DNA of 36,560 nucleotides from a virus. The DNA lies in the IMG/VR virus record IMGVR_UViG_3300025327_000097, positions 1-36,560 of that record. The stretch is one strand, 5' to 3'. The notes beneath the pieces are model-generated. The model did not search any database, had not been told where the DNA came from, and was given only the letters and a program-made list of their open reading frames with translations. Shown piece by piece: positions 5,889-26,899 of this stretch. How positions within the stretch are numbered: position 1 is the stretch's first letter; every line of letters starts with the position of its first letter. A program made the position numbers and the translations under genes.

Positions 5889-6173
5889 CTATGCATTCCT
5901 CCTCACGTACCTCACGTCCTTGTAGTGCCAAGCGAATTGGATGATTCCGGCGATGGCGATGATCCTGAGAGAGATGAACAGGCTGTTTTCTCGCTCAAGA
6001 CCAAAACTCTCGAATGACCGTCCGAGGGCCAACACGCCGATGCAGAATGATGAAGCGATGGCTCCCAAGACAGCTGGCGTTTCTTTCAACCTCGCTCGCC
6101 GCGTAAGGGTGGCCGCAAGGATTAACAATGTGAGGCCAAGGGCCGCGTTACTGGCGAAATCAACCCACGTCAA
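5889..6173 (-). CDS. small membrane protein
   Basis: 94 residues from TTG 6173, which overlaps the previous stop as TTGA and follows a G-rich ribosome site. Three hydrophobic segments are seen: about residues 6-24 (ASNAALGLTLLILAATLT), 34-51 and 66-82, separated by basic loops, with a basic C-terminus (KDVRYVRRNA). It forms a pair with the coiled-coil membrane protein just upstream, resembling the XhlA/holin pairs of some phages. A lysis or membrane role is therefore possible but not shown. No catalytic motif is present. Confidence 0.6.
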   Translation of the reverse strand: MTWVDFASNAALGLTLLILAATLTRRARLKETPAVLGAIASSFCIGVLALGRSFESFGLERENSLFISLRIIAIAGIIQFAWHYKDVRYVRRNA

Positions 6174-6448
6174 ACAACCGTCCCCCCGATGTAGTTCATG
6201 GCCGCAAGGCTGATTCCGGCGATGAGGATTACCCAAGGTGAATACTTGGCATACTTGCGGTCGCTCGTCTCTGTCCCTTCGAGGGATTTGATTCTGGACT
6301 CGTGGCTATCGACCTTCTTCTTGAGGTACGTTGAGCCTCGGACGTTCTCTGCCACGACCTGCCAGATGTTGACCTTCCAGTCGTTGTTGTCCCATTTCAT
6401 GACTTCTGAAATGGGCGTCTCGATCAGTTCGTCAATGTTCCTGCTCAT
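6170..6448 (-). CDS. coiled-coil protein with C-terminal membrane anchor (XhlA-like)
   Basis: 92 residues. Residues 1-40 are polar, with Trp-rich VMKWDNNDWKVNIWQVV; 41-65 form a charged coiled coil; 71-90 form one hydrophobic helix (WVILIAGISLAAMNYIGG). The order soluble helix, coiled coil, tail anchor matches the phage XhlA/hemolysin-like family, which acts at the membrane with a holin. ATG 6448 follows GGGTGA, and the gene is translationally coupled to the neighbouring membrane protein. Family assignment is by architecture only. Confidence 0.55.
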   Translation of the reverse strand: MSRNIDELIETPISEVMKWDNNDWKVNIWQVVAENVRGSTYLKKKVDSHESRIKSLEGTETSDRKYAKYSPWVILIAGISLAAMNYIGGTVV

Positions 6449-7134: not shown

Positions 7135-8463
7135 TCACGGCCTCGTGTAATCAACCTGAATGGCGAGCTGTGTGACCACGCCCGCAGTCGTGACAACCAT
7201 GATCTCAAGTTTGTCGCCCGCAGCATAGGCGGCATCTTGGACGGCGCCACCGTCCGCCCAGGCATCTGCCGAGACAAGTGAAAGAGCAGAGGCGAGGTGG
7301 CTCGACGCGCCGTTTCTCCGGGCGTTCACAGTCGCACCCGTCCCGCCGACTCGATAGCCTTTGACCGCAGTAACGGTGCAGGCAAAGGGCGCGCGCCAGG
7401 CGATGATGTTGAGCGCGGCGTTCGGGATGCCCGCAGACATATAGATCACGCCCCCGCGGCTTATCGGAACCGCCTCGAAAGCGAAGGCGGTGGCGCTCGT
7501 AGGACGGAGGAATTGCCCAGCGGTTTTCCCCGAGATCGTGTGTGTCGCGGAGTCAAGGACGTGGGCCTTTGGGGGTTGGTTGTCCGCCAGCTCGCCCGAG
7601 AGGCCCGCGACTGAGATTTCGTCCGCGCCAGCGTTCTGGTGAGACGCCGCGTGTGCCGTGGGGGTCTGAGCGTCAGCGAGCGCCCCAGAAAGGCCCGCCA
7701 CCGAAATTTCGTCGGCCCCTGCATTTTCATGTGTCGCCTTGTGCGCGGCCGGAGTCGCGACGACGATTTCCCATGCGGCACCGTTGTCGCGCGAGAGGAC
7801 GAGGGTGTCGGTGGCGAACCAGAAACGGTTTGCCACTGCGGCGGCCGGACGCTGTGCGGCCGTGCCGATCCCAATGTCTCGAACTGCTCCATAAGTCGCG
7901 ATGAGGTCGCTGATCTTGGTGTTCAGATTCGCGAGTGTGTCTGCGCTGTGGGCGGCGCCACCAAGGGCGTGTGCCGACGGAGTCTGGGGATCCGCAAGCG
8001 CCCCGGACAGACCCGCCACGCTGATTTCGTCTCCTCCTCCGTTCTGGTGGGAAGCGGCGTGAGTGCTCGGCGCGAACGTCGCTGGCTTCCCGAGCACTTG
8101 ATCCCAATGGATGACCGTGTCGGCCCAAGCTGTGCCGTTGCTCCTCTGCCAGCGCTGCTGGCCAGCGTCCGTAATGTAGTAAACGGCCCCGGATGGAACA
8201 GCAGTGGCGGCGGGTTGCGCGGCGGCCGTGCCGAGCATGATGATGTCGGTGCCGAGCACCTTCTCGGCGCTGAGGCCCGCGTTCGCCGCGTAGGTGATGT
8301 ATTCGGCGTCGGTGGGGGCTCCGCCTCCACCGCCAGCCACCCCCACAATCTCGTTCCCAACACGTTTGAGGAACAGCCCATCGGCTATTTCGTCCATACT
8401 GAGCGTGTACCCTGTAGGGCACTTGATGTTGCTGATGACTTCTGTGATGTTGTCGACGGGCAT
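7135..8463 (-). CDS. tail fibre with HxxSHQ/GGADEI repeats
   Basis: 442 residues; ATG 8463 with AAGGAG upstream. Three copies of an about 31-residue repeat built on HAASHQNAGADEISVAG and LSGALADAQTP are seen at residues 135-166, 241-272 and 271-302. A second repeat pair (GTAAAQPAATAV...GQQRWQRSNGTAW and GTAAQRPAAAV...SRDNGAAWE) occupies about 77-114 and 199-232. The His/Asp/Glu-rich repeats are common in phage tail fibre shafts and may bind metal ions on the trimer axis. The last 110 residues form a beta-rich head (FACTVTAVKGYRVGG), probably the receptor-binding end. A Gly-run hinge lies near residue 45. Confidence 0.75.
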   Translation of the reverse strand: MPVDNITEVISNIKCPTGYTLSMDEIADGLFLKRVGNEIVGVAGGGGGAPTDAEYITYAANAGLSAEKVLGTDIIMLGTAAAQPAATAVPSGAVYYITDAGQQRWQRSNGTAWADTVIHWDQVLGKPATFAPSTHAASHQNGGGDEISVAGLSGALADPQTPSAHALGGAAHSADTLANLNTKISDLIATYGAVRDIGIGTAAQRPAAAVANRFWFATDTLVLSRDNGAAWEIVVATPAAHKATHENAGADEISVAGLSGALADAQTPTAHAASHQNAGADEISVAGLSGELADNQPPKAHVLDSATHTISGKTAGQFLRPTSATAFAFEAVPISRGGVIYMSAGIPNAALNIIAWRAPFACTVTAVKGYRVGGTGATVNARRNGASSHLASALSLVSADAWADGGAVQDAAYAAGDKLEIMVVTTAGVVTQLAIQVDYTRP

Positions 8464-9304: not shown

Positions 9305-11518
9305 TCACAGTTGTGTCCAGACGCCCACCACGCAGGCATAAATGCCTGCGGGGACGTTGGAGTCGTAGATCATCGCACCATCGCTCGCCACGACCGGCAT
9401 CGTTGTGCGGTCGGCCGGTGGCAGGAGGATCTTGCAGGCGTTCACACCCTCGTCGTGGATGATGCTGAAGCCGAGGACTCCGCGCAGGCGCCATCCGACT
9501 CGCGTGTCCACGTCGGCTGTCCCGCCTCCGGCGAGGTCTTCATAGATTTGCGCGGCGTCGAACGTCTCGTTTGCCACGCCGGTGTGGTTGCTGATCCTGA
9601 GCGTGAAGTTGGGAGAGTCGTTCAGTGTCGCGGCAATCGCGACAGCCGGGGCATAAAGAATTTCCGTCGTGTTGAGGTGAAAGCGTTCATCCGTGCCGTC
9701 GCCCGAGTAGAAGACGAGAGGACGAGCATTTCGGATTTGGTTTTCGGTCGCGGTAACAATCAAACTATTGCCCGAGACATTGAACCCGATTAGCGTCGTC
9801 TGACCGATCATGAAGGTCGTCGTTGACATACCCGCACGGAGTTCGGTTCCATTTACACTGGAAACTGCGAGCCCGAGATCGAGTGAGGCATTCCCCGCCG
9901 TGCGAATGATCATGTTCGAGTTGCTCGCACCTGCCCACGTCGTGCTACCGACCGCGATGGTGAAGCGGGATTCCTCGGTTACGACGTTGCCGCTGTAGAA
10001 CACGAGCGGGCGAGCATTGTTAATTGAAACGACGGAGTCCGTGAGACGGAGGGTGTTAACGTTGTTCATGATGATGTCCAAGATGCCGTTCTCCGCATGG
10101 TAGAAGTCTGTCCCATCGGGGCTGGTGAGCCTCGCGCTCCCGTCGGCCCCGAGTGTCGCCGAGCCGACCGCGATGGCGCCGGTGGCCGTGTCGATCACGA
10201 TGTCCGTCGCGAGCGAGGCGAGCCAAGTCGTTACCCCGGCGGTCGGGGTGATGCGGGATTGCTCGGTCACACCGGCGTCGGAGTAGAAAATTGCCGGGTA
10301 TCCACCTCGGAATTGGAACGAGGCCGATGAGACGACGTAAAGGTGCGCGAGGCCCATTTCCAGGCGGATCGCCGTGTCGATGCCGATGCGGTCGTTAGCG
10401 CCCCCGCCGAGGTACGCCGTTCCAGACCCGTCGCGGTTGATTTGTACGCTCCCGTTCACGCCGTCGTTGATGACGATTGCGTTGTTGGCCTGGTCGTTCT
10501 GGATGATGATGTCCGAGCCGGAGGCCGCGAGCCAGGTAGTCGCGCCGACGGACGGGGTGAAGCGCGACTGCTCGGTCACGTCAGCCCCGGAGTTGAATAC
10601 CAGCGGCGTGGCGTTGTTAATAGCCACTGACGAGTCTCCAATGTTGACACGGGAAACACTGGCAGTGAAAAACTGGTGCCCTCCATTCAAAATCGCCAAG
10701 AAGTCTGTATCGTCGGGGCTGTATAATCGTACCTGCGATGCCGTCACGCCTGCGGCAGTCCCCCCAAGGGTGATGGCACTTCCTGTGACGCCTCGGACAA
10801 TCGGCGTGCTGATGCTGGTAGTGACTTCGAGCACACCGACGTCAGACAACGTGGCGCGCGCTGTCCCACCTTGGTTCTTGATGGTCAAAGAACCAGAAGC
10901 CGTCAGCACCTGCAAGGTGTCCACCGACAGCACTCCACCACTGCTCAAAAGCATCTTGTCAGTGCCTCCGAACGTCCATCGCAACTGAGACGTGGGCCCT
11001 GTGGTCAACAAATCGTGGTACACGCGAGCGTCGTAGTCTGCCGAGGCCGAACCGTTCCAATACTTTCCCCGGAGTACCACTCCAGGCGAGTCCTTGAGCT
11101 GGTCTCCGACCAGGGCCACGCCAGCTTCGAGTATCAAGTCCTCGTCCAGGCCCGAGCCGCCCAAGGCATCCTCGATGGCCTGGAGTTCGACTCGAACCTG
11201 ATTGAAAAACAGCGCCGGAGCCACAGCTCTAACCGCCGTGCCAACTGGGTGGGCCACGGCTGTTGTCCCATCTCGCGCCCTCGTCACGGTGAGTGTGTTG
11301 GAGTTGATGGCGGTGATCAGCACAACTTCGTATCCGTTTACCGACCGGAGAGCGACGTACATATTGACAAGGAATTTCGTGCCATCGTTGACGACGAACG
11401 ACACGGTGCCAGCCACCACTGCAGTCGTCAGAGGCGAAGCCTCTACATTTGTGTAGACGCCGATGTCGGCGTCCACGAACGTCCCCGGAAACTTGGCTGT
11501 CACCGCCGCGTAAACCAT
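9305..11518 (-). CDS. long repetitive tail fibre
   Basis: 737 residues, starting at ATG 11518 directly after the previous stop. Residues about 36-100 resemble the beta domain shared with the connector and distal tail proteins (TLTVTRARDGTTAVAHPVGT). The shaft holds four copies of a unit like INNARPLVFYSG..VTEQSRFT..VG.TTWLA at about 297-338, 399-442, 496-538 and 593-618. A second element, SPDGTDFYHAENG-like, occurs at about 265 and 464. A module near 142-185 (KDSPGVVLR...YHDL) reappears near 638-685 (NDSPNFTLR...YEDL), flanking the shaft. The C-terminus is a small head domain. Beta-prism or beta-helix trimer fibres look like this; host binding is inferred. Confidence 0.75.
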   Translation of the reverse strand: MVYAAVTAKFPGTFVDADIGVYTNVEASPLTTAVVAGTVSFVVNDGTKFLVNMYVALRSVNGYEVVLITAINSNTLTVTRARDGTTAVAHPVGTAVRAVAPALFFNQVRVELQAIEDALGGSGLDEDLILEAGVALVGDQLKDSPGVVLRGKYWNGSASADYDARVYHDLLTTGPTSQLRWTFGGTDKMLLSSGGVLSVDTLQVLTASGSLTIKNQGGTARATLSDVGVLEVTTSISTPIVRGVTGSAITLGGTAAGVTASQVRLYSPDDTDFLAILNGGHQFFTASVSRVNIGDSSVAINNATPLVFNSGADVTEQSRFTPSVGATTWLAASGSDIIIQNDQANNAIVINDGVNGSVQINRDGSGTAYLGGGANDRIGIDTAIRLEMGLAHLYVVSSASFQFRGGYPAIFYSDAGVTEQSRITPTAGVTTWLASLATDIVIDTATGAIAVGSATLGADGSARLTSPDGTDFYHAENGILDIIMNNVNTLRLTDSVVSINNARPLVFYSGNVVTEESRFTIAVGSTTWAGASNSNMIIRTAGNASLDLGLAVSSVNGTELRAGMSTTTFMIGQTTLIGFNVSGNSLIVTATENQIRNARPLVFYSGDGTDERFHLNTTEILYAPAVAIAATLNDSPNFTLRISNHTGVANETFDAAQIYEDLAGGGTADVDTRVGWRLRGVLGFSIIHDEGVNACKILLPPADRTTMPVVASDGAMIYDSNVPAGIYACVVGVWTQL

Positions 11519-11954: not shown

Positions 11955-12442
11955 GCGACCACCTCGCGGAAGCGCCAGTTGATCTCGATATCGATAGCCC
12001 GGCGCCGGAACATCTTGGTCGTCTTGTCGAACGAAGCAATCCGCACTCCCCACTTCATCCAGACGCGCCCGCTGATGTTGGTGTCCGTCCCCAGGCTGTC
12101 CACGCGGTGTGCAAGTATGATCCTGCGGGCCTCCTCGATCAGCTTGACGAGGTGCTCGCGCGTGCCGTTCGTGGTATAGAAATCCAGCGTGACGACCGCC
12201 GTGTGGTTCACGAAGTCATAGCCGATGGTGACAGGATCCTCCTTCTCGCTGACGATGTAGATGACCACTTGGTCGCCCGAACGGAATGTGACGAACTTCG
12301 AATCCTCGGCGTACCACAACTTTGGCTTGGAGGACACTTCAGTGTCCCAATTCTTGTCGAGCAAGTCCTTGATCATCTTCGCGGCATCGAAGCTGGTCAA
12401 GCCCTCCTTCAACAGAACCATTGCGGCGGGGTCGGTCGTCAT
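11951..12442 (-). CDS. tail terminator / tail completion-like protein
   Basis: 163 residues from ATG 12442 (ATGA overlap with the connector stop). It begins with a helix and the segment AAKMIKDLLDKNWD, followed by strands with VVIYIVSEKEDPVTIGYDF and VVTLDFYTTNGTREHLVKLIEEARRIIL. A short N-terminal helix, a beta-sheet and a long helix in this order resemble phage tail terminators (lambda gpU type), which cap the tail and bind the connector. The position after the gp6-like connector supports this. No residue is diagnostic, so confidence is moderate. Confidence 0.6.
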   Translation of the reverse strand: MTTDPAAMVLLKEGLTSFDAAKMIKDLLDKNWDTEVSSKPKLWYAEDSKFVTFRSGDQVVIYIVSEKEDPVTIGYDFVNHTAVVTLDFYTTNGTREHLVKLIEEARRIILAHRVDSLGTDTNISGRVWMKWGVRIASFDKTTKMFRRRAIDIEINWRFREVVA

Positions 12443-13317
12443 AAGAGCACGAACCTCTGGAAGGTGTTGGGCACCTCGCGATTCCATTCTTCGTTCCAGC
12501 GCTGGACAGCCGCATTGCGGTCGATCCCTTGTCCACCTTCGCCGGACACTGCGATGAAGGGCTCGTTTTCGAGGAACATGGCGGCGGCACGTTTGATGAC
12601 GAGGTGACGCACGTAGTCGTCCACTTGGAAGACCTTGGAATCGTCGGCGTGAGCCGCAGCCTCAGTATTGAAGATGCCGCGCTCACAGCCAGTGAAGGTT
12701 GTGGTTGTTTTGCCGCTGTAGCCGATGTATTCCTTGCCGATGCGAATCCAGCCTTCGAATCCGTACTTTTTCGTGCTGTCCACGGTCACGGTCGTGGCGC
12801 CGACAGTCAGTCCTGCGACGTCGTTCACCTGCGTGGGCAAGAATCCGTGCTCGTAGGTGATCCTCAAGAGCGAAGCTCGACGCGGGATGAAGGTCTTGCG
12901 AATGTAGATGATGCCCTGCTCTTCATCCACCCAATAGTCCTTGTCACGGCCCTGCGTCTTGGTGCTGAGCCATTCACTCCAGACGCCACTTAACTCGCTC
13001 CCCTCGTAAATCTCCAGTTTGTGACCACGGGTCGTGGTCAGCGGCAAGATCGGTTTGTAAATTGTCCCCGTTGGACGGGGGACAGTCACGAAGTCAAACA
13101 ACTCCTTATGCCTGCTGCGCAGGCTTTCGAGGTCATGCACCTCTTCGGTGTGAAACACGGGCTTGTACGCGCGCCCTGTGCGGCGCTCGAAGTCGCCCTC
13201 GACTTGGACGATGAGAGAATCGAGGGTCGCTTCCGAGACCGGGCTGTTCGCGTCGATTGCTTGCTGGAGGAGCAAGAAGTTGGACACGTCGTTTGGGGTG
13301 CAGTAGACTGATCTCAT
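12439..13317 (-). CDS. head-tail connector (gp6-like) with inserted beta domain
   Basis: 292 residues; ATG 13317 overlaps the previous stop as ATGA. The N-terminus CTPNDVSNFLLLQ and the helix ATLDSLIVQVEGDFERRTGRAY are typical of the HK97 gp6 / SPP1 gp15 adaptor family, which forms a ring under the portal. The C-terminal helix after residue 233 (VRHLVIKRAAAMFLENEP) is also typical. Between them, residues about 165-233 hold a beta domain (TVTVDSTKKYGFEGWIRIGKEY, split by FTGCERG) that closely matches one in the distal tail protein at 2523-3359. The insertion makes the protein about twice the usual adaptor length (100-150 residues). Confidence 0.75.
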   Translation of the reverse strand: MRSVYCTPNDVSNFLLLQQAIDANSPVSEATLDSLIVQVEGDFERRTGRAYKPVFHTEEVHDLESLRSRHKELFDFVTVPRPTGTIYKPILPLTTTRGHKLEIYEGSELSGVWSEWLSTKTQGRDKDYWVDEEQGIIYIRKTFIPRRASLLRITYEHGFLPTQVNDVAGLTVGATTVTVDSTKKYGFEGWIRIGKEYIGYSGKTTTTFTGCERGIFNTEAAAHADDSKVFQVDDYVRHLVIKRAAAMFLENEPFIAVSGEGGQGIDRNAAVQRWNEEWNREVPNTFQRFVLL

Positions 13318-15785
13318 GCCGTCACCCCGTGGATCAACTGTAGGGGCATATACGTGCCCTTGATGAAGCCGCCCGAGCGGGCTTTGGCCGGAGTATCCGT
13401 GTCGAGGTTGCAGACGATGATGTTGTCGAAGAGGAGCCGGCCGTCATTCGTATGGTCAAAATAAGCGGTGAACCTGTCGATCACTGTCTGAGGATCTCGG
13501 AATGGCGCATCGGCATCCCGCACGACGCCATTGATCGCAATTGAGTAGATATCCGAAGCGCAATCAAACCCGATCACGAAGTCGTATCGTGTGCTCCCGA
13601 CGTATGCGAGAGGCGTATCGAAATTCACAAAGACCGCGCCATTCTGAACCTCCTGAATGCGGAAGGTCGTACCTCCATCCGTCGTTCGGAAAGTCGGTTC
13701 CGGGCCGATGGACGAAGCCCCTGGTGCGCCGTTGGAGAGAATTAGAAACACGCCTTCAATTGCGGACGCCACGGCCATCGAACTATGCGTATAGACGGAG
13801 ACGCGAAATATTCCCCGAACAATCGTGGGTGAGAACGTTGGGGAAGTCCAACTCGTAATGCCGGTCGCCGCCGCTGGCTCATTGATATCCAACGAGTTCA
13901 ACCCCGTCTCTGGGTTGCTTGCGGACACATCAATCGCTCCCCCGCCCGCCCCTTCCAGCGTCGTCCCCAAGGCCGGGTTCGCGCCAGCCGTCTCGCCCTC
14001 GAAGCCGTAGCCGAATACGCAGCGGAACACAACGCGCTTCCTCGTGCCGCCATAAATCCCAAGTCCCTGGCGACTCCACCCCTTGGGCATGATCACGCGC
14101 AGGCCGTCCGCGAAGAACGGGCCGTTCGCGCTTGCCTCATTGCACGCGGCATCGCGCAGGTTGTAAACGAGCACCGCCCCGTTGAGGTCGATTGTTTCGT
14201 TGTAAGACCCACGGTCGACGTACAGCTCGCCGTTCAGAACATAGATTGCGCTGTTGAGCTTCGGACAATACTGCGGGTCATTCAAGGTGCTGAGCTTGAT
14301 CTGCCCGGCCTTGCCGTAGACGTACGAGCCGTCGAGATTGTGGTTGCAAGAAGCGAACGTGCCCGTTGCGGTGATCGCACCTTGGTAGGTCGAGGAGATG
14401 GATTTCCACGTGTCGCCGCTGGAGACGGTGAGCGCGCCGACGAATGTCATGGACTTTGCGATCATCGTAAGAGCGTTGGTTGCCCCGGTTGTAATTGCTG
14501 GCGTAATCTCCCCGCTCTGTAATGTAACGGTGCCGTTCACGTCCATAGTTGGAGCAGTTCCGACGAATGTAAATGGGAATGATGCACTGGCGGCTCGAAC
14601 TGTCATAGTGTGGCCTGCGGTATTGCTCCACCCGATCGCGCCGTTGTTCGTGATCGTGGAGGATGCTAACGCCGTCCCGAACACTATTGAGGCGCTGATG
14701 GAGGCCGCTCCGGGCGTCCCGAGTAATTGGATGGTTCCCGCGTTCGTCAGGTTTCCTTCGATCGTAACGGTCAGGGTTGCCGAGGCGACATATGCTAAGT
14801 AGGAATTGGCGCCAGCGGCGGTTTTGTTGATGTTGTAGAAGGTGATGTCGACATTGCTCTGTTGGAGCGTCTGATTATTCGTGTCAATCGTTACAGTTCC
14901 AGAATTATGATTGAACGTGTGCCCACTCTGGAAATTACAGTCGGAGCCGCAGAGCCACGACCCACTCGCGTTCGGCGCGTTGAACGTGCCGCCGCTCGCA
15001 ACCGTCAGCGCCGCATTCTGGTCGAACGTCCATGCGGTATTGCTCCCGAACGAACCCCCGATCGTAAGCGTTCCGTTCGCCACCCACGTCCCGCCGCTGC
15101 TGAAGATTGCCGTCGTACCCGAAGCGATTGTCACCGCCCCGCTGTGCGTGATCGTGTAAATGTCGCAATCCAACGTGAACGCGGGAGCCCCTGTCGTGAC
15201 GAGCGTGGCGAATGGCGCGGCTTGGTCGATGATCACAAGGTCACCGATGTCCGTGCTGAGGGAGTCGAATATCACAGCGTCTCCAGCGATGGGGACTGTC
15301 TGCCCTCCAGCCCCCCCGCTGGATGCAGACCAATGTCCTACGTCTGACCAAACGCCGTTGCCGCTGTCACCGACCTGCACCCAATATCTCGTAAGGCCGA
15401 ACGGCGCAAGCGTGAGCGGGTTGTGTAGGTCGAAACCATAGACGAGAAGGAGAATCAGCCCAACCGTAACGCCTCCGATCAAGAGCCAGTCCCACTTTTC
15501 GGCACGAGACTTGAGCTTGCCAGCCCACGCCAGGATTCTGACCTTCAGCCGGGGGCGTATGGTCATCCCGCCGCCCCTGCGCCATCTGACGACTTGTCCT
15601 GGGCCGATGTTGAACTGACGCAAAACACGCTTGCGCCGGAACTCTTCAACCTCTCGCGCGGTCTCGCGAGCAAAGCGTCGTGTTGACCACGGGTTGAAAC
15701 GGCCATTGAAGACGGCGCTATCGCTGTAGAAGAGGAACGCAAATGTCGTGACGATCAGCAGACCGTCAGGGCTTTTTCTCGACAT
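13314..15785 (-). CDS. membrane-anchored beta-helix surface protein
   Basis: 823 residues from ATG 15785. Two hydrophobic segments (about residues 8-21 and 99-118) flank a very basic stretch (RRFARETAREVEEFRRKRVLR, RWRRGGG), as in a membrane hairpin with a cytoplasmic loop. Next come GVWSDVGHWSASSGG and a long Gly/Ser/Thr/Ala-rich region with NGTLTIGGSF-like steps, typical of right-handed beta-helix adhesins (about 140-540). The last about 200 residues (IVRGIFRVSVYTHSS, YSIAINGVVRDADAPF) resemble a concanavalin-like lectin fold. The gene is chained between virion genes. A virion protein is unlikely to have two membrane helices, so it may sit in the host membrane and face outward; this is inference. 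Cysteines are rare. Confidence 0.65.
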   Translation of the reverse strand: MSRKSPDGLLIVTTFAFLFYSDSAVFNGRFNPWSTRRFARETAREVEEFRRKRVLRQFNIGPGQVVRWRRGGGMTIRPRLKVRILAWAGKLKSRAEKWDWLLIGGVTVGLILLLVYGFDLHNPLTLAPFGLTRYWVQVGDSGNGVWSDVGHWSASSGGAGGQTVPIAGDAVIFDSLSTDIGDLVIIDQAAPFATLVTTGAPAFTLDCDIYTITHSGAVTIASGTTAIFSSGGTWVANGTLTIGGSFGSNTAWTFDQNAALTVASGGTFNAPNASGSWLCGSDCNFQSGHTFNHNSGTVTIDTNNQTLQQSNVDITFYNINKTAAGANSYLAYVASATLTVTIEGNLTNAGTIQLLGTPGAASISASIVFGTALASSTITNNGAIGWSNTAGHTMTVRAASASFPFTFVGTAPTMDVNGTVTLQSGEITPAITTGATNALTMIAKSMTFVGALTVSSGDTWKSISSTYQGAITATGTFASCNHNLDGSYVYGKAGQIKLSTLNDPQYCPKLNSAIYVLNGELYVDRGSYNETIDLNGAVLVYNLRDAACNEASANGPFFADGLRVIMPKGWSRQGLGIYGGTRKRVVFRCVFGYGFEGETAGANPALGTTLEGAGGGAIDVSASNPETGLNSLDINEPAAATGITSWTSPTFSPTIVRGIFRVSVYTHSSMAVASAIEGVFLILSNGAPGASSIGPEPTFRTTDGGTTFRIQEVQNGAVFVNFDTPLAYVGSTRYDFVIGFDCASDIYSIAINGVVRDADAPFRDPQTVIDRFTAYFDHTNDGRLLFDNIIVCNLDTDTPAKARSGGFIKGTYMPLQLIHGVTA

Positions 15786-15799
15786 ACATACCGACCAAC

Positions 15800-16258
15800 T
15801 CACACGTACCCTTGCGTTACACCGAGGATCGCGTTGATGGCGGACAGATTGCCCGTCCCTGTGGATTTGAACCTGCTGAATCTGGCGTACGCCAAGCCCC
15901 TGCACGGCAGGATGCCAATGACCTTTTTCAGAGTGTCGATGGCGTCGGGCGTCACATCCACGTAGCCAAGGACAGCCCACTGCGCGCTGGTCAGGTCTTC
16001 ATAGGGCGTGCCTTCGATCTCGAACGTAATGGTTGCGACGGTCGTCGCAACCTTGACTCCAGCGAGGATAGCCAGCTCATCCCCGGAGAGTGGGACAGCC
16101 TTCTGGTTGGCGCTTGTCACGGCATAGTAGGTGTTGGCGGTCGGCGCAACCTTGGCGTCGTTGTCGTGGAAGGCTGAGACAGACTCCCAATCCTCGGGAG
16201 AGCGAGACTGCTTGTTTGGAGCCGCAAGCGCCCAATTCCCGTACGAGTTTCGAGCCAT
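15800..16258 (-). CDS. small virion protein, decoration candidate
   Basis: 152 residues from ATG 16258, 14 bases before the surface-protein gene. The N-terminal part is polar (WALAAPNKQSRSPEDWESV). The rest is a mixed alpha/beta domain with Thr/Val-rich strands (VATTVATITFEIEGTPYEDL) and a closing hydrophobic tail (INAILGVTQGYV). Size, place in the head-completion module and lack of catalytic motifs suggest a capsid decoration or minor structural protein. The family is not recognised. Confidence 0.5.
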   Translation of the reverse strand: MARNSYGNWALAAPNKQSRSPEDWESVSAFHDNDAKVAPTANTYYAVTSANQKAVPLSGDELAILAGVKVATTVATITFEIEGTPYEDLTSAQWAVLGYVDVTPDAIDTLKKVIGILPCRGLAYARFSRFKSTGTGNLSAINAILGVTQGYV

Positions 16259-17403: not shown

Positions 17404-17423
17404 ATCTCCGCCTACGCGGAGAT
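17404..17423 (-). promoter_or_regulatory. hairpin holding the capsid gene stop codon
   Basis: Perfect 8-bp inverted repeat ATCTCCGC / GCGGAGAT with a 4-base loop GTAG; the loop contains the capsid gene stop TAG. No T-run follows, so it is not a classical bacterial terminator. Confidence 0.45.
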
Positions 17424-18602
17424 CGACCTGATCTTGGCGCTCGTGTTGAACCTCGTCACGTAGATCTGCTCGCACGTCAGGAAGATCGCCTGCGTGTCGA
17501 ACTTCTGCCGGATCACGGGGTTGTCCACTTCCACGTACAGGGTCGGGAACCCTACGCGAATGTGGATGTTCCTCATGTCAGGCAGGTAGATCCGGTCGAT
17601 GCCGTCCACCGCGACGTTCTTGTCCACGACAAACGGCCTCATCTGGTACGCCCGTGTGGTGTAGCTGATGTCCCTGCCGGGGTGCAGAGCCGTCTGGCTG
17701 AGCCCCTGGTAGTCCAGCTTCGCCTGCACCTGCGACAGGTCGAACCGCCCATGCGCCTTCAGCTCGTCGTAGACAGCCTGGCGCGTGTCGCGGCCCGTCA
17801 GCCAGACCTGCGCGCTCGCGACTCCGCCATCGTCTTCTGTGAAGTTGATGGCCTTGTCGAGCGCCTTGGTCTGGAACGGCAGGTCGGTTCCAAACGTGAG
17901 TTTGGAACCATCCGGTCGGATGACGTGCGCGTCGTACGTCGTGGCGCTGTCGCGGTCGATTGCACCCTCGTACACGTCAAAGTGCCCGGTTCCAACCGCC
18001 GCAATCGCGTCTTCCTCGGCATCCGAGGAATACAAGCGGTCGATGGTTTCCATGCCCTTGCCCGTCCCGTTCGCGTCGTTCTTGGCGTCCGTGGTGTTGT
18101 TGGTGTCCAGCGTGACCGATTCTGACTCGGCATTCTTGAGCAGCTCTTCGTTGAGTAGCTGCACGTGGACGTCGCGCTCCGCCGCCTTCTTCCACGACCA
18201 CAGGTCGAGCCCGTCGTCGTGCTGGCTGCGGAAGCCCGCGTCCAGCGTCAGGTCGAACGGCGTGTGCAAGAACCCAGGAATGGTGCTGAGCTCATCGGGG
18301 CTGAGGTCGACAACAGCTCCGATGGAGCCGGGGTCTGCGCCGCCGTAACCCTTGGTCGGGGGGTTGGTCGTGAGCACGCGGAAACCGCTGCGCTCCCACA
18401 TCTCCTTCTTGAAGATGGCGTGGCCGTTCGCTTCGCGGTTCACGTGGTCGTAGACCACGGCGCCGTACGTCGGGTTGATGGCCCCGCTGTGTCCGGCGAC
18501 GTTGCCCGTCTTGGCAAAGTAGCCCTTCAAGAACGGCACGTAGTGCTGTTGGTTGTAGGCCCACTCCACCATCTCTCCGATGTTGGTGATTAATGGCGGC
18601 AT
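17412..18602 (-). CDS. major capsid protein (HK97 fold)
   Basis: 396 residues; ATG 18602 follows GGAGGGAG. It is the first globular protein after portal, MuF protein, protease and scaffold-like genes, the canonical capsid position. The N-terminal arm (PPLITNIGEMVEWAYNQQ) leads to a body with YDHVNREANGHAIFKKEMW and later strands and helices, including PFQTKALDKAINF and the C-terminal IHIRVGFPTLYVEV. Gly/Asp-rich loops around residue 175-200 may be an insertion. No protease cleavage site was identified in the sequence. The HK97 fold is inferred from context and the family rule that such viruses use it. Confidence 0.8.
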   Translation of the reverse strand: MPPLITNIGEMVEWAYNQQHYVPFLKGYFAKTGNVAGHSGAINPTYGAVVYDHVNREANGHAIFKKEMWERSGFRVLTTNPPTKGYGGADPGSIGAVVDLSPDELSTIPGFLHTPFDLTLDAGFRSQHDDGLDLWSWKKAAERDVHVQLLNEELLKNAESESVTLDTNNTTDAKNDANGTGKGMETIDRLYSSDAEEDAIAAVGTGHFDVYEGAIDRDSATTYDAHVIRPDGSKLTFGTDLPFQTKALDKAINFTEDDGGVASAQVWLTGRDTRQAVYDELKAHGRFDLSQVQAKLDYQGLSQTALHPGRDISYTTRAYQMRPFVVDKNVAVDGIDRIYLPDMRNIHIRVGFPTLYVEVDNPVIRQKFDTQAIFLTCEQIYVTRFNTSAKIRSISA

Positions 18603-19358: not shown

Positions 19359-21233
19359 TTACTTCGCCTCCTTCGTGATGTGATGAGAGTATTCTTGCTG
19401 GAACAGGTAGAAATCATGGGGTGTCAGCGCACCCTCGTGGATGACTCCATGCTCCAGCGCCTTCTGCATGACTTCGAAATACATCACGGCGTCATCAAAC
19501 ATCTTCTGCATCTCGAAGCAACCAGAGCAGTAGCCGTTGTATTCAGTCCAGTATGACTTGCCGAGCTTGCTGTAGGCAATCCTGTGCGCCGCCTCGTCGC
19601 CGCTCTCGGCCCACCCAAAGTCGCTCGGCTTGTCCTTGAACCTCTGCTTGACGTGAGAGAGCAGGCGCTCGAACTTCTTGCCGTGGTTGTGGCCTGGGCC
19701 TGGTTTGGTGATGAGGTCTTCGTCTTCGATGACTTGCTCACGGCATTCGTCGCACTGGCAGTCCGGCGCGTGGCGCCGAGGCCCCTTCTGCTGCTCCGAC
19801 GAGTTAGCCTGTGCAGTGCTGGCCATCTGACCAGCTACGTTGCCAGCCATCTCGATGGGCTTCTTGATGGCTTGACCGATGCCGCCCACAGCCGCAGCTA
19901 TCTGCTTCTCCTTCAGAGAAACAAGTGAACCGGCAGCGCCAAGCGCCTGGTGTGCAGCCGCTTGAGCGCCTGCGCCTGACGTTGTCGTTGGAGTTCCAGC
20001 CCCAATCAGCGTGTGGCCGATGTCCTGAGCGCCTTCACCCATGCGTTCAGCTGGAGTTTTCTTGCGCTCGTCCTCGCGCTTCGCAGTTGGGCCATCCGGC
20101 CCTGGCTCCTTCAGCTTGTCCTTTTCGAGAAACGCGAGACGTTCCTCGAATGAACGCTGGAAGAACCCGCGTGGCTGCTCGCCCCGGCTCGATTCTTCGT
20201 TGGCGCTGTCCTTTCCCCGGTCGCTGCCCTCGGGGTACTCGTAGTAAACCTCGTCTTCCTTGGGCTTCTTCATCGGGCCTTTGTCCGAGTGCGCGACACG
20301 GATCGTCGGGCCCTTCGGGTTGTTGGGCGTGCCGAGGGGGAACTTGATCTCTTCGCCGTCCTTGATCGGGTGCGCTTTCATCTTGCGTCGACCCTGTGCC
20401 AAAACACGATCAACGTACTCAGGACTTCGCTCACCGTGACCATAAGGAGAACGTTCTTCGGCTGTGAGGTTGGAAAGATTTCCGACTGGAACAGTCGACG
20501 CCGCGTCGGAATAGCCAGTTCCGAGATGATCTCCTGCTTCCGGTTTACGCTTTGGGCCTTTCTGTTCCATCTGTCCGCCCCGTGGCTCATACACAACCCA
20601 CGCGCCCTGTTCGTTGATCTCGTTTTCGAACCCGGCATCGCTGAGCCTGCCCATCGCGTCTTCCTCAAGTTCGTGCGCGAACTCAGTATCGCCGGACTCT
20701 TGCATCTTGGCGTACTCGGCCTGGAGGTCGGACACGTCCACGCCGTAGGATTCGGCTTCGGCCAGGATGTCCTCAGTGCGTTCACCGCCCATCTGGAGGT
20801 CGAGGACGGTGGATGGTTCGCGTTCTTCTTCATCCGTGTCCGGCGGAAAGTCGCTTTCTACGAATCCGCCTGCGAGTGGATCATCTTCGGGGAAATCCAA
20901 CTCCGATTCGTCCCCGGTTTGCTCGGCCAGGTAGTCCTCGACGGAGCGACCTTGACCCGATGGGCGCCCTCCGCCTCCACGGACGTTGTCGAAAGGATCG
21001 CGTTGGGTGCCATAGGGCTGACCACGGGAGTCCGTTTCCTTCTCTTCGTCTGGAACCGACGTCACGGCTCCCCTCGACCCACCGCCCCCCTGGAGCAGCG
21101 ACTGCGCCGCAGGCCCGTAGACGGTTTCGCCTGTCCTCATGTTCTTGGCGCCCATGCCTCCACGGGTGCCCATGTGAGGAACCCATTCGCCGGTCTTCTG
21201 TAGGCTGTGCAACCACTCCTGTTCCCAACTCAT
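19359..21233 (-). CDS. disordered head-associated protein with Cys motifs
   Basis: 624 residues from ATG 21233 (ATGA overlap with the protease stop). Most of the protein is low-complexity and charged, with repeated KGPKR-like basic steps. It shares two motifs with the protease gene: RGFFQRSFEERLAFLEK (compare FGQRHLTRSFDERLEAL) and EWVPHMGTRGGMGAKNMRTG (compare MWTPRSGGGGARNIETG). A Gly/Ala-rich region around 425-480 may be membrane-active (AAAVGGIGQAIKKPIEMAG). Cysteines at about 492, 494, 497 and 569, 572 suggest a metal site, followed by a globular helical C-terminus. Possible roles are internal scaffold, cargo or ejection protein; none is proved. Confidence 0.6.
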   Translation of the reverse strand: MSWEQEWLHSLQKTGEWVPHMGTRGGMGAKNMRTGETVYGPAAQSLLQGGGGSRGAVTSVPDEEKETDSRGQPYGTQRDPFDNVRGGGGRPSGQGRSVEDYLAEQTGDESELDFPEDDPLAGGFVESDFPPDTDEEEREPSTVLDLQMGGERTEDILAEAESYGVDVSDLQAEYAKMQESGDTEFAHELEEDAMGRLSDAGFENEINEQGAWVVYEPRGGQMEQKGPKRKPEAGDHLGTGYSDAASTVPVGNLSNLTAEERSPYGHGERSPEYVDRVLAQGRRKMKAHPIKDGEEIKFPLGTPNNPKGPTIRVAHSDKGPMKKPKEDEVYYEYPEGSDRGKDSANEESSRGEQPRGFFQRSFEERLAFLEKDKLKEPGPDGPTAKREDERKKTPAERMGEGAQDIGHTLIGAGTPTTTSGAGAQAAAHQALGAAGSLVSLKEKQIAAAVGGIGQAIKKPIEMAGNVAGQMASTAQANSSEQQKGPRRHAPDCQCDECREQVIEDEDLITKPGPGHNHGKKFERLLSHVKQRFKDKPSDFGWAESGDEAAHRIAYSKLGKSYWTEYNGYCSGCFEMQKMFDDAVMYFEVMQKALEHGVIHEGALTPHDFYLFQQEYSHHITKEAK

Positions 21234-24232
21234 GTCAAAGCCTCCAGGCGCTCGTCAAAAGAACGGGTGAGATGGCGCTGACCGAACTGTTCCGCTTGTG
21301 GATCACGGCCTTGAACGAGTTTTCCACCACGATTGCCAGGTGGGATGTAACCACCAGCCTGCATCGAATCGCGGTCGGCAAGGTACTCATGAATTTGATC
21401 GAGGTTGACACCCTCGACTCTGGCGTCTGTGCTTCCATCGTCCCACGGAGTGTTGCCCACTCGATCTGACCGAGAACGCGATGATGGGTCGTCCTGACCC
21501 GCGTAAGAGGGGCGATAGGGCCCCTTGACCTTGTTTCCACCCATCGGGCGGAAGTCGAACTCCATCGCGTCCGGCCATTGCGAATACTCCATTCCCGCAG
21601 GCACCATCAGCCTTGGGTCGCGCTTTGGCTGTTGCTGGGGTTGGCTCCTCGGGGTCAGCGCACGCGCCGCATCGCGGACAGGGCCCTTGCGCTGTGGGGG
21701 ATACATCTCGTCCTCAACGTCACCCATTGTGAAGTCCTCACCTTGGAGTTCGTCAATCGCTTGGTCAGCACCGGGCTCGCCCAGAGCCTCAAAGGGTTGT
21801 TCCATAGGTTGTGCTTGCTCCATCTCCGTCGCTTCAGCCGCGACGTCCATCAGTTCGCTGACGACGAACTGCGCCAGGTTCGGGTTGCCGCGCGCCCAAG
21901 GCGTGTTGAGGACTGCCTGCTTGATTTCCTCCGCCGCAGTGGGGTCGATCTCGTAGAGGTCGAGGGACTTCTCCAGCACCCGAAGCCGCGCCTCAAAACC
22001 CATCGCCTTGCTCTTGCAGCACCGCACGCCGTGGCCACAGCCGCAGTCGAGTGACCGTTGTAGGTGGCGCTGGCGGAACTCATCCAGAGCAGGAAAAGCC
22101 GCGTTGGAATCCATGACGGCGCCGAGTGGCACGGCGCCTTGTCCGGTTTCGCCAAGCACGAAAGACGGTTCCTTGCCAGCCTCCCTCGCCGCACGGTGTG
22201 TTGCTTCGGGGAGGAGCATTCCGCCACGGTCATAAATGTCCCACATCTCGTCACCAAGGCCAGTTGCCCTGTTGAACTGGATGTCTGAACGCGGCTCGGA
22301 CTGCTCAGGCTGACTGGCGAATCTTATCCAATCCTTTGGGTTTGTCGGATCGGGAGCCGCCTTCCTCGGCCACCCGTGATACACTCTCCCACGCCGCTCG
22401 ATGGCCTCCATCTCATCCGGGTCGACGCCCATGCGCTCTTCGCCCGTCTCTATGTTGCGCGCTCCGCCGCCGCCTGAGCGAGGCGTCCACATCTGCTGTC
22501 GTTTCCGACGTGAAGGCCCCTTCTGCTGCCGCATCGTGTTAATCTTCATGCCGCCGCCGCGTCCGCCGAGGCGTCCGCGCTCAAGCGGGTTGCTCTGGAG
22601 CTGATCCATAGAACCAGCTGGCATTTCTTCCGGGTGGCGCGCGGAGCCGCTGACCGGGTCGATACGAGTCCTCCACGCCGCGCGCTCGCGCAAACCCGTC
22701 TTATTGGGGATGGGCGTGTGCGACCCCACCTGTTGGAGGTCTCCCACGGGGCGTCCTTTTTTGTCTCGGCCCTGCGCCATTGTTGGGTATTCAGCGCCCT
22801 CCACCGCGCCGCGAGCTCGTTCCTGCTGCTCGTAAGGAGTGTAGGCCGCGCGCCCGAACTTGTCCGGGTCACGTTCTGAAACCCAGGACGGGCCGCGCTT
22901 TTCGAGGAACGCGAGGCGGGCTTCGGGTGACAACATCTTCTCTCCGCGTCGTCTCGCCCATTTGGGCACACTTCCTTCGGCGTGAGGTGCTTCCAGTCGT
23001 TCCCAATCTCGCGCCGAGGCAGGGACTGGTTCGTAGCCCAGGCGTTCGAAGTGTCGGATCATGGATTCTTGCTTCGGAGAAACTTGGCGCCGCTTAGGCC
23101 CGCGCGTCAAGTATCGCTGGCGGAAGTTCTGAGTGCCACGAGCCGCATCAACGTTCGTTCTTCCAGCAGAAGTCCAATTAGTGTCGAGTGGACGAGCCAT
23201 CTCATCAGCCACGTTCCTATTTGTTGCGACGGAGTGTCCGGGCTGCTCGGGTCGATTGTATTCAGGATACCTCTCGATAGGGATGTTCTCATCCGGATGC
23301 GCAAACAAGTCAAGAGTATCTTTGACCCGACGAGCCTCGTCGTCATCATCCGGTCGGTTCGGTGGCACCATTGCCTTCTCCAGCATCGCGATCCTCTCGT
23401 CCGCTGACCGTTTCATGTAATCCTGCCTGAACTGACGAACGGTTTGATTCTTGTTGTCTTCGCCTTCGATGACGCCGATTGGCCCTGGCGGGTTTGCGAA
23501 ACTGTAGTCGGAATATTCTGCTTCGGATGGGTGCCTCCACTGATCATAAGCGGAGTCCGCTTCCTCGTCTGGAGGATACAAACCCTCTTCGATTGGATTC
23601 AGAATGTTGGGGTCTGGCGGGCCTTCCGTGTGGTTCGACCTGTATCCGACGACGATATCTTCCGGTCGGACGACCCGGACTTTCTCCAACCTGTCCTCGA
23701 ACGACTTAGCCACAACCTTGAATGCGGCGCCCTGGTTCATCCCCGTTTTGCAAACCGTTACAGCAGACAAATCCACCGCGTCGATTTGATTCACGATCTT
23801 GCAGGTGAACGAGTCGCACACGTTGGTCTTGTTTTCCACGCGCGACTGCCCAGAGATCGAGAACGAGTTCAATTCGCCTTTCTCAATTTCCGCCCTGACC
23901 TTGAGGCTGAAGTCCGTGTCGTCGTAAATCTTGCCGACGACGAACAGCATCTCGTCGCCTGGCTTCACGCCGCCTTTGGCGAGGTGCGGGTACTCGGCCA
24001 TGTCCTGTTCGACCACTGGTCGAACAGAAGTTGCATACGGCCCCCAGCCCTTCAGAATTTCTCCAACGAGGATGTCCCCGTGCTGGAGGCTTAGCCTCCC
24101 ACGAAGAAGGAGTTGAGGCAGGCCAGCCTTGAGAGCGGCGCCTGTAATCAAGTCGCCCTCTCTGTCAACGACGGCCACGCTTGCGGGGCCAGCGATGATG
24201 AAGTCCCTGCCGGATTTGGATATGAGTCGCAG
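21230..24232 (-). CDS. prohead protease (XkdF/S78-like) with long repetitive tail
   Basis: 1000 residues if started at CTG 24232; the first conventional codon is GTG 24178, which would cut off the coding-like RLISKSGRDFIIAGPAS. The N-terminal domain (to about residue 175) has features of phage prohead proteases: AVVDREGDLITG, His in LSLQHGDILVGE (about 51) and the likely catalytic Ser in LNSFSISGQ (about 125). The remaining 800 residues are disordered and charged and hold recurrent units such as FRQRHLQRS and ERIAMLEK, many KGP(K/S)R steps, a Cys cluster CGCGHGVRCC, and an end FGQRHLTRSFDERLEAL. Proteases of this type cut scaffold and capsid proteins; fusing protease to a long scaffold-like tail is unusual. 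A TATA-like box precedes it. Confidence 0.75.
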   Translation of the reverse strand: MRLISKSGRDFIIAGPASVAVVDREGDLITGAALKAGLPQLLLRGRLSLQHGDILVGEILKGWGPYATSVRPVVEQDMAEYPHLAKGGVKPGDEMLFVVGKIYDDTDFSLKVRAEIEKGELNSFSISGQSRVENKTNVCDSFTCKIVNQIDAVDLSAVTVCKTGMNQGAAFKVVAKSFEDRLEKVRVVRPEDIVVGYRSNHTEGPPDPNILNPIEEGLYPPDEEADSAYDQWRHPSEAEYSDYSFANPPGPIGVIEGEDNKNQTVRQFRQDYMKRSADERIAMLEKAMVPPNRPDDDDEARRVKDTLDLFAHPDENIPIERYPEYNRPEQPGHSVATNRNVADEMARPLDTNWTSAGRTNVDAARGTQNFRQRYLTRGPKRRQVSPKQESMIRHFERLGYEPVPASARDWERLEAPHAEGSVPKWARRRGEKMLSPEARLAFLEKRGPSWVSERDPDKFGRAAYTPYEQQERARGAVEGAEYPTMAQGRDKKGRPVGDLQQVGSHTPIPNKTGLRERAAWRTRIDPVSGSARHPEEMPAGSMDQLQSNPLERGRLGGRGGGMKINTMRQQKGPSRRKRQQMWTPRSGGGGARNIETGEERMGVDPDEMEAIERRGRVYHGWPRKAAPDPTNPKDWIRFASQPEQSEPRSDIQFNRATGLGDEMWDIYDRGGMLLPEATHRAAREAGKEPSFVLGETGQGAVPLGAVMDSNAAFPALDEFRQRHLQRSLDCGCGHGVRCCKSKAMGFEARLRVLEKSLDLYEIDPTAAEEIKQAVLNTPWARGNPNLAQFVVSELMDVAAEATEMEQAQPMEQPFEALGEPGADQAIDELQGEDFTMGDVEDEMYPPQRKGPVRDAARALTPRSQPQQQPKRDPRLMVPAGMEYSQWPDAMEFDFRPMGGNKVKGPYRPSYAGQDDPSSRSRSDRVGNTPWDDGSTDARVEGVNLDQIHEYLADRDSMQAGGYIPPGNRGGKLVQGRDPQAEQFGQRHLTRSFDERLEALT

Positions 24233-24282: not shown

Positions 24283-24363
24283 TTACTTCTGCTTCTTCCT
24301 TGAATGCTGGAGCCAGTTCCAATCTTCTGGCTTCTTGCGGAAGTCAAAGCGCTTCTTGGTCAT
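24283..24363 (-). CDS. 26-residue basic peptide, tentative
   Basis: ATG 24363 is preceded by AGGAGG three bases upstream and overlaps the end of the MuF fusion gene by 20 bases, as do other junctions here. The peptide is very basic (KKRFDFRKKPEDWN and RKKQK end) with two Trp. It is too short to judge by itself. It fills the space between the fusion gene and the promoter gap, and if translated it may bind nucleic acid or be a leader peptide. The same DNA could also simply be untranslated 3' sequence. Confidence 0.35.
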   Translation of the reverse strand: MTKKRFDFRKKPEDWNWLQHSRKKQK

Positions 24364-26899
24364 CTTCTTCCTCCTGTCGTCCAATCTTCTCGACGCGGAA
24401 CCCAGACAACCGTTCCACGACCGCGCTCCACGCTGTGTCCGCAATCGCTTGCTCGTCATGAAGTTCCGCTGAACCGAACAAAAAATCATCCCGTTTATAA
24501 TACGCCGATCCGTGCGGCGTGGCCACAATGTATTCGGCTTCGCCGCCGTAGAGAGATTCGTCAGCATAGAACGCGCCGACAACCGAAGAGACCGGGATGC
24601 TGGCATTTATCATTACGCCGTGCTCCTCTCCGCCACCCTCTTCCATGAAATTTTTCGCGACCCGAGGTGATGCAGTCCACGACTCAAGCGTCCGATGATC
24701 GATGAGCGCGTCTTCTTCATCTCCTTTGGCGATATGCTTCCCGATGGCTTTTCCAGTGGCGCCCTTGATCCCACGGTAGACCGTGATCGTGTCCGTCTCT
24801 GGATTGTACGTCGGGTCGATCTTCCGCACCAGCCCCTGCACGCGCTGGACGGACGCCTCGATATCGGCAAACGTTTCCATGCTCGGATTCGTCCTCTTCC
24901 CGACGATGACCGTCTCGGGGATGTGCGGGTTCTGAAACTTCAACGCGGCCCAGGCCCAAAGCGGAAACGCCCTTGGCGTCTCGTTGCTGTGCGCCCATTC
25001 TTTGTAGAGGTTGTGGGTTTTGTCCTCAACGATGTGACGCTCGTCCTTCCATTTGTTCGGGCCGCTGGACGGCGTGACCTTATCCATGAACGTCTCCCAG
25101 GAGTACGTGTAACCTTTCTTGTTGGCGTCGTTAGCAACCTCCTCAGCAGCCTCGATCATATCCTCTTTGGTCTGTTCAGGAGTACGCTCAGCATCTAATC
25201 CTCCACGGATTTGATACTCCACTGCCATTTGAAGCCCGTCGTTGAACTTATCCCTGAACGACTCAAGGTCAGTCTCGATCCGCGTCTTCACGGCGGTCTC
25301 AAGCTCGCTCTTTGGTTTCTTCTGCTCGGGTGTGCGTGGGGGCGGAGCGATAGGGCCCCGCATATCTGCTGTTATCCTGAACTCGGGATCATACGCTGAA
25401 AGTATTGAGCTTTCACCCACCTGTTTCGCGGGCACCGGGTGTCCAGTCTGCGCCGCATGGCCCGCGAGTCCTTGAGGACTCGCGAAACAATGGCCGGGGA
25501 TGTCGCAGTAGCGTCCCACCCCGTGCGACAACTTCATCAAGTAGTCAGTATCCGGCTCCGACAGCCGTAGCGCCCTCAGCAACGTCCTCGCTCTGTAGGG
25601 GTGCAACATCATGACGTCGCCCTTGTCGGGGTCGCGATCCCACTCAAACCCAAGGTGCTGATAGAACTTCTCGGCCTCGTCGGTCGGTTCGAGGATGATC
25701 GGCACGTCGCGGTCGACGGATTCTTGCGCGACCTGCTGCATCAGCTTCTTGCCGTGACCCTTGCCACGGTCAGCGCCCAAGTGGTTGATGTGGATCGCGC
25801 GCCCGTGCTTCGGGTGCTGAACCTCGTTCCACGACATAGCGCCCGCGATCTTATCGCCTTCTTCGGACGTGATCAGATTTGACTCGCCCGAGAAACCTTC
25901 GCGGAGTGCGCGACGGCCCATGACCTGTGGGAGGTTGGGCACATTGCCGCCTTCAGGAGACTGTTGCCACGCGCCGACCTGCTCTTCGATCTCCTGCGGG
26001 TACTTCCGACCTTTTCGAATCTCCTTGCTGACAGTGCGCCAGAAGCCGTGACGACAATTCGGGTGGCTGAGAGGGAAACCACCATCTCGCGTGGGGTTCC
26101 ACTTTGGCGACCCTCCGAATGTCGTGTCCGTGGACACGGCAATGACAATTCGCTTGAGTTCCTCAAGCGACACGCCGTCCTCGGTGCGCCGGATGATCTC
26201 CGTGCAGATTTTGCACTGTTTCTTGTCCTTCAAGTCACGACCAAAACGATAGAGCAGCTTCTCGTCAGTCTCGCGCTCGAACTCCTCATAGGCGTTCATG
26301 CGAGAAGTTTCCCACACCTTCCATGTTTCCGTCCGGGCGATCCTCTCCAGGGACTTGCGCCGCTCCCAACCCACCTCGTCAATCATGCGGAGGACAATCG
26401 GCCCCGACGCTGGCGCCCCAGCGCGGAAGGCTTCAGCCACGATTTCGTTGAAGCGCGTGGAAATCGTTTTACTGAATCCCGCAAATGATTCTGCCACGCC
26501 CTTCCCCTCAATCAGGGTCTTGAGCGCGCCCTCATGCACGCCACCCATCTTGAACGGATAAGCCAGGTCGCGGCCGACCTGCTTCAAACCCTTCTCGTAT
26601 GCCTTCCGCGCTTGCTCGCGGAAGCCAGCAACGAGTTCTTCGCCTATCCGCTCGGCAGCGCGGTTAAGCGCCAGCTCCAGTTCTTCCTTGGTGGGTTCGC
26701 GCTTGCCCGCGACCTTCTCGATTTCTTCTTCGAGGATTCGCTTTAGCAAAGCGGACATCTTATCCTGCTCGGACGCACGCCCTTTGAACATGACGCGATT
26801 CGCGTCAGCCCACTCTATAAACAGCGCGTTGCGCTCGATGTCGTCGCCTTTGAAGTCCATCCAACGCCTGTAAGCGTTGAGCGAATCAACGACGCTCAT
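24344..26899 (-). CDS. MuF head protein fused to GNAT, zinc finger and ADP-ribosyltransferase
   Basis: 851 residues from ATG 26899, which overlaps the portal end by 14 bases. Residues 1-305 are a MuF / SPP1 gp7-type minor head protein, with the IARTETWKVWETSRM helix (about 187-201), C229-x2-C232 and the HPNCRH end motif (279-284). About 325-435 is a GNAT acetyltransferase with the acetyl-CoA loop R378-GKGHG and the C-terminal EAEKFYQHLGFEWD. C465, C471, H481 and H487 form a C2H2-like finger. From about 525 a helical region leads to an R-S-E class ADP-ribosyltransferase: R709 in VYRG, S740-WTAS, and E787-AE. MuF-linked toxins are known in temperate phages; two enzyme domains in one such protein is striking. 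The enzymes' targets are unknown. Confidence 0.85.
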   Translation of the reverse strand: MSVVDSLNAYRRWMDFKGDDIERNALFIEWADANRVMFKGRASEQDKMSALLKRILEEEIEKVAGKREPTKEELELALNRAAERIGEELVAGFREQARKAYEKGLKQVGRDLAYPFKMGGVHEGALKTLIEGKGVAESFAGFSKTISTRFNEIVAEAFRAGAPASGPIVLRMIDEVGWERRKSLERIARTETWKVWETSRMNAYEEFERETDEKLLYRFGRDLKDKKQCKICTEIIRRTEDGVSLEELKRIVIAVSTDTTFGGSPKWNPTRDGGFPLSHPNCRHGFWRTVSKEIRKGRKYPQEIEEQVGAWQQSPEGGNVPNLPQVMGRRALREGFSGESNLITSEEGDKIAGAMSWNEVQHPKHGRAIHINHLGADRGKGHGKKLMQQVAQESVDRDVPIILEPTDEAEKFYQHLGFEWDRDPDKGDVMMLHPYRARTLLRALRLSEPDTDYLMKLSHGVGRYCDIPGHCFASPQGLAGHAAQTGHPVPAKQVGESSILSAYDPEFRITADMRGPIAPPPRTPEQKKPKSELETAVKTRIETDLESFRDKFNDGLQMAVEYQIRGGLDAERTPEQTKEDMIEAAEEVANDANKKGYTYSWETFMDKVTPSSGPNKWKDERHIVEDKTHNLYKEWAHSNETPRAFPLWAWAALKFQNPHIPETVIVGKRTNPSMETFADIEASVQRVQGLVRKIDPTYNPETDTITVYRGIKGATGKAIGKHIAKGDEEDALIDHRTLESWTASPRVAKNFMEEGGGEEHGVMINASIPVSSVVGAFYADESLYGGEAEYIVATPHGSAYYKRDDFLFGSAELHDEQAIADTAWSAVVERLSGFRVEKIGRQEEEDDQEAL

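Follow-up and report, generated by a model that had tools for sequence, protein, structure and literature searches.

The locus described here raises the question of where a virus puts an adhesin that carries a hydrophobic helix: on its own particle, or on the surface of the cell that it has infected. The gene lies in IMG/VR virus record IMGVR_UViG_3300025327_000097, whose whole length of 36,560 nucleotides was analysed and is called the window below. The original prediction had described an adhesin-type, membrane-anchored protein between a capsid-associated gene and the head-tail connector gene. This description held up: the gene overlaps its neighbours by 4 bases on both sides, and its product, P0002, has both an adhesin module and a hydrophobic helix. 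Placement in the membrane of the infected cell is a live reading and is slightly favoured. The genes discussed are these:

9305-11518: 737-aa fibre-like gene, between the connector and tail tube genes
12439..13317, minus strand: head-tail connector gene, a relative of HVTV-1 gp125 (30% over 158 aa)
13314..15803 from a GTG start (829 aa), or from ATG 15785 (823 aa), minus strand: adhesin gene (P0002), defined by open frame, overlaps and coding statistics
15800..16258, minus strand: small capsid-associated gene, likely the HVTV-1 gp123 counterpart from its position and weak similarity (20-23% identity)
17412..18602, minus strand: major capsid protein gene, phrog_24667, 24-25% to HVTV-1/HCTV-1 by BLAST

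The 823-residue open reading frame first reported at 13314-15785 is real, and its strand is minus. The minus-strand frame is open from 15980 to 13314, and ATG 15785 gives 823 codons; the plus strand of 13314-15785 has many stops in that reading. The adhesin gene and the connector gene share 4 bases, ATGA, which hold the TGA of the first and the ATG of the second. At the other end, GTG 15803, which is in frame, forms a GTGA overlap with the TGA (15802-15800) of the upstream gene and has AAGGG just 5' of it. The start is likely either this GTG or ATG 15785. Because of the GTGA overlap and the AAGGG, whereas no clear ribosome-binding site precedes ATG 15785, GTG 15803 may be the true start, which would give 829 aa.

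Translation might also begin later, at ATG 15566 (residue 74). The coding statistics of 15785-15567 average +0.14 in the adhesin frame (references: 0.20 for the 5th percentile of real genes, -0.25 for the 95th percentile of off-frames), and the other five frames are negative or near zero, which favours translation upstream of ATG 15566. Further in, no ATG, GTG or TTG lies between residues 102 and 136; the TTG at residue 102 falls within the membrane helix, and the GTG at residue 136 falls within the adhesin module. A start downstream of the helix, making a module without it, was rejected because no start codon precedes the module. The original prediction had considered a start beyond two hydrophobic segments. 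Such a start is excluded for the second segment, and for the first ATG 15566 is possible.

The N-terminal part of the protein has three features:

15708..15764, minus strand: hydrophobic segment 1, residues 8-26, insertion score 4.4, no helix predicted there
15495..15707, minus strand: very basic stretch, residues 27-97, by charge count, predicted cytoplasmic
15432..15488, minus strand: predicted transmembrane helix, residues 100-118, by insertion score and a helix at 100-117 in the structure model

Residues 100-118 are predicted to be a strong transmembrane helix. Their insertion score, a rough measure with a weighting of our own, in which lower is better, is 0.02. None of the 13 other window proteins tested does as well; the tape measure protein of the window scores 1.40. 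Among 119 full-length open reading frames of the module family (matches listed), the lowest score is 1.21, so all are above that of P0002. The segment has a Kyte-Doolittle peak of 2.25 and an octanol sum of -10.8. The Kyte-Doolittle peak alone proves little, because 434 of 5000 composition shuffles of the protein reach it.

Segment 1 was found to be different. Its score lies near those of the soluble virion proteins tested (4.6-10.2), and two membrane helices were therefore rejected, although residues 1-97 rarely give such clustering by chance, as only 78 of 5000 shuffles match it. So of the two N-terminal segments first described, the second stands as a predicted membrane helix and the first is not supported as one. 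The very basic loop reported between them was confirmed, with 21 K/R against 5 D/E in residues 27-97; a low-confidence model places a helix at residues 33-51 within it. The 52 residues after the helix (119-170) hold 1 K/R against 4 D/E. Because of the K/R excess before the helix, the positive-inside rule predicts an N-in/C-out topology, with the N-terminus inside and the large part outside. P0002 shows what is expected of a type II single-pass protein, a basic N-side flank followed by a hydrophobic helix of some 19-21 residues, and the topology check called for earlier accordingly predicts one helix, N-in/C-out.

The adhesin module comes right after the helix:

15264..15389, minus strand: RYWVGG adhesin module, residues 133-174, by motif and a Thr-Arg junction as in internal family copies

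It reads RYWV, then two W, then SGG..G..VP...D.V.FD. The degenerate second-half pattern (SGG..G..VP...D.V.FD) occurs once in the window and had no match in 100 shuffles, and in P0002 it is preceded by R[YF]W, in keeping with the family pattern. The motif is present in at least 119 IMG/VR stretches, and an alignment of 24 sequences has 11 invariant columns. P0002 itself has no close relative in IMG/VR or among phage records, no match in the PDB and no PHROG family by profile search. The closest named likeness is P19250A_0021 of a Methylophilaceae phage, a "PE family protein" with 51% identity over 47 module residues; proteins of this type share with the P0002 module a gene context typical of virion adhesins. 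In phage P19250A the module gene comes after the genes for host-specificity protein J and a tail fibre. Neighbours of module genes elsewhere tell a similar story: 9 of the 10 proteins tried match tail, head or structural PHROGs, and one matches only an unknown-family PHROG. RYWVGG thus appears to be a widespread virion-adhesin module, very common in environmental viruses and normally without an anchor. It had no match as a string in the literature searched, and the four family members scanned had no PHROG match and no Pfam match above cut-off. The module, apparently without a Pfam or PHROG family, merits a family of its own.

Among the matches listed, the 119 IMG/VR stretches hold 129 copies of the motif, of which 104, in closed frames, lie no more than 60 residues from the first start codon, 23 lie more than 170 residues in, and 2 belong to neither class. 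In the 170 residues ahead of these 129 listed copies, hydropathy peaks at 1.54 on the Kyte-Doolittle scale and no helix reaches 1.8; the anchor therefore looks peculiar to P0002 in the sampled family. RYWVGG proteins elsewhere, again among the matches listed, start with the module (residue 4) or hold it internally, and P0002 alone has a preceding helix. The residue before the listed N-terminal copies is D or N in 92 of 104 and T in 3; of the 23 listed internal copies, 22 are preceded by T and one by S. P0002 has T, like the internal copies, so its fusion looks natural, with no lost start codon. The junction residue and the coding signal both oppose a frameshift or the loss of a start codon at this point, and these ideas were rejected.

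Beyond the module the protein was harder to read:

14436..15263, minus strand: beta-strand-rich region, residues 175-450, in a low-confidence model; family BLAST matches reach about residue 411
13317..14054, minus strand: C-terminal region, residues 578-823, lectin-like by eye, no profile match, pLDDT 31.9

Structure prediction, proposed earlier as a check, gave a whole-protein model (24 sequences) that is beta-rich from residue 132 to 450, but its pLDDT of 44.6, and the 31.9 of the C-terminal region modelled alone, are too poor to use. On the model, residues 175-450 may form a beta-solenoid; the hydropathy autocorrelation of the protein peaks at 0.11, with no clear solenoid period. The lectin-like end that had been suggested was not borne out. 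When checked for a LamG/ConA-type lectin, residues 578-823 had no Pfam match even at E 10, and no PHROG or PDB match. Weak Pfam matches of P0002 to MazE and LysM fell below cut-offs and were rejected.

The relatives of the virus were sought by BLAST of 34 window proteins against 25 HVTV-1 proteins. Terminase, portal, MuF, protease, capsid, connector, tail tube and tape measure proteins match in the same order (E 2e-31 to 1e-7), and by these matches the virus is related to the haloarchaeal Druskaviridae (HVTV-1/HCTV-1). It resembles them in its homologous capsid, portal and connector set with the order kept, and differs in that identities of ~23-30% fall short of family-level similarity. Druskaviridae genomes are ~100 kb, compared with 36,560 bases for this record, which is possibly a fragment. 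In IMG/VR, the capsid protein found no relatives as a single sequence, and its alignment found 5 loci, three of which are isolated druskaviruses. A search of 18 of the 28 loci with terminase relatives found neither the capsid nor the adhesin gene in any record. A second IMG/VR contig of 12,150 bases has an identical terminase and no match to the adhesin protein, and no second contig covers the adhesin gene. Neither a provirus nor a host genome came up in two genome scans.

No match to the adhesin gene was found in HVTV-1 or HCTV-1. In both viruses, four small genes lie between the capsid and connector genes, and the last of them before the connector, HVTV-1 gp124/HCTV-1 gp116 (phrog_24068), encodes ~110 aa with one N-terminal hydrophobic helix. 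This membrane protein is kept in 8 of the 8 druskavirus records found, which represent few distinct viruses. The window also has four small genes after the capsid gene; P0002 comes next and fills the slot before the connector. The slot proteins are like P0002 in having one hydrophobic helix and lying directly before the connector; they are unlike it in their size, in having the helix at the very N-terminus and in lacking an adhesin part. P0002 had no profile match to phrog_24068, no BLAST match to HVTV-1 gp124, and no detectable sequence similarity to the slot proteins of other viruses. Homology with gp124 is not claimed, as position alone is common to both. The proposed comparison of the gene across relatives thus found none close in IMG/VR or phage records, and a small unrelated membrane protein in the HVTV-1/HCTV-1 slot. 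By analogy, the position is suggestive of a membrane role without proving one.

Small membrane-protein genes adjoin the (putative) connector gene in three families of haloarchaeal tailed viruses. In HSTV-1, membrane gene gp16 precedes gp17, whose similarity to the connector is weak (E 0.009); in HRTV-28 membrane gene gp17 directly follows the connector gene. HFTV1, Humcor1 and psiM2 have no membrane gene between the capsid and connector genes.

The reading preferred here, quite possible and held only tentatively, is that P0002 is a virion-type adhesin module made into a single-pass membrane protein and shown late in infection on the surface of the infected cell. Its strongly basic N-terminal stretch of ~97 residues would stay in the cytoplasm, helix 100-118 would span the host membrane, and the beta-rich adhesin module and C-terminal domain would face outward. 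As the gene is encoded together with capsid and connector genes, it would presumably be expressed late along with them, and the infected cell would wear the adhesin at that stage. That cell, probably archaeal, may then bear a viral adhesin that binds the same surface glycans or proteins as virion fibres do; our guess is that the most likely outcome would be receptor masking or cell linking. What speaks for display is a helix that outscores the window proteins tested and the family, with its basic side first; the lack of any start codon that would yield the module without the helix; and the small membrane protein that HVTV-1/HCTV-1 hold in the slot between the gp123-like gene and the connector gene.

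Nearly as likely is that P0002 is a virion adhesin (a head fibre, neck or tail fibre) whose basic and hydrophobic N-terminal part attaches it to the particle or ties an oligomer together, and which is never inserted in the membrane of the producing cell, or only during entry. The gene sits beside capsid and connector genes, and the family module adjoins tail fibre, spike and other structural genes; because of this family context, a virion protein is the default. The window also has the 737-aa fibre-like gene, whose product has no relative among phage records. The earlier statement that virion proteins rarely have membrane helices needs qualifying, as the tape measures of the window, HVTV-1, HCTV-1 and HFTV1 have such hydrophobic segments and yet end in virions. 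The turrets of HFTV1 are encoded in its morphogenesis cluster (PMC12494034), and in its gene order turret genes gp30-gp31 lie between the tail completion and tail tube genes. However, the helix of P0002 stands far above those of the family and of the soluble virion proteins of the window, and the charge pattern is that of a signal anchor. The HFTV1 turret proteins gp30/gp31 and the HSTV-1 tower are haloarchaeal tailed-virus surface proteins from the morphogenesis cluster, and unlike P0002 they have no membrane helix (Kyte-Doolittle maxima 0.45, 0.88 and 0.92). Comparison of P0002 with the turret and tail fibre proteins of HFTV1 and with the tower of HSTV-1 gave no significant match (best E 1.3), and the idea that P0002 is a turret or tower protein was rejected on that ground.

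A secreted adhesin is improbable. Here the helix would be a long signal sequence, cleaved for example after Val-Tyr-Gly (residues 115-117), where Val at -3 and Gly at -1 after the hydrophobic core suit signal peptidase by the established rule, judged by eye. The N-region would be 26 residues long from ATG 15566; from the favoured start it is ~99-105 residues, long for a signal peptide, and the coding statistics back translation upstream of 15566. More improbable still is an assembly or frame artefact joining a small slot membrane gene to a separate adhesin gene, which the separate 110-aa slot protein of HVTV-1 and the single contig would allow, and which the continuous coding signal in a single frame, the internal-type residue before RYWV and the lack of a start codon at the module all oppose.

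Superinfection in prokaryotic viruses is usually blocked by small dedicated membrane proteins. A full adhesin that is encoded in the structural operon and tethered to the cell membrane would represent another route. The broader form of the display reading is rather unlikely: that the virus coats the infected cell with a tethered copy of a virion adhesin, masking receptors or gluing infected to uninfected cells, and that the slot is a recurrent site for membrane proteins. If it is true, the slot before the connector would be a recurrent site, in this archaeal-type tailed-virus branch, for proteins acting on the host envelope, and adhesin display would give an entry into late cell-surface remodelling by archaeal-type tailed viruses. 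In HFTV1, a distant haloarchaeal tailed virus, pre-infection reportedly left attachment unchanged (PMC9973310).

Several other genes of the window may be of interest. The minus-strand gene at 24344-26977 encodes a MuF-like head protein in which a GNAT acetyltransferase domain is embedded (PF13673, E 2.3e-8); in the comparable region, HVTV-1 gp115 has a zeta toxin joined to an ADP-ribosyltransferase domain. At 19359-24178, also on the minus strand, a protease/scaffold-like protein and its neighbour both carry a repeated QRHLTRSxDERLxxLEK-like motif, seen by eye. The 442-aa protein of 7135-8463 (minus strand) has QNAGADEISVAGLSGALADAQTP-like repeats, again by eye, and is probably a fibre part. 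Just before the tail tube gene are two small overlapping membrane-protein genes (5889-6236 and 6170-6448, minus strand), which are similar in position and helices to HFTV1 gp33 and gp34.
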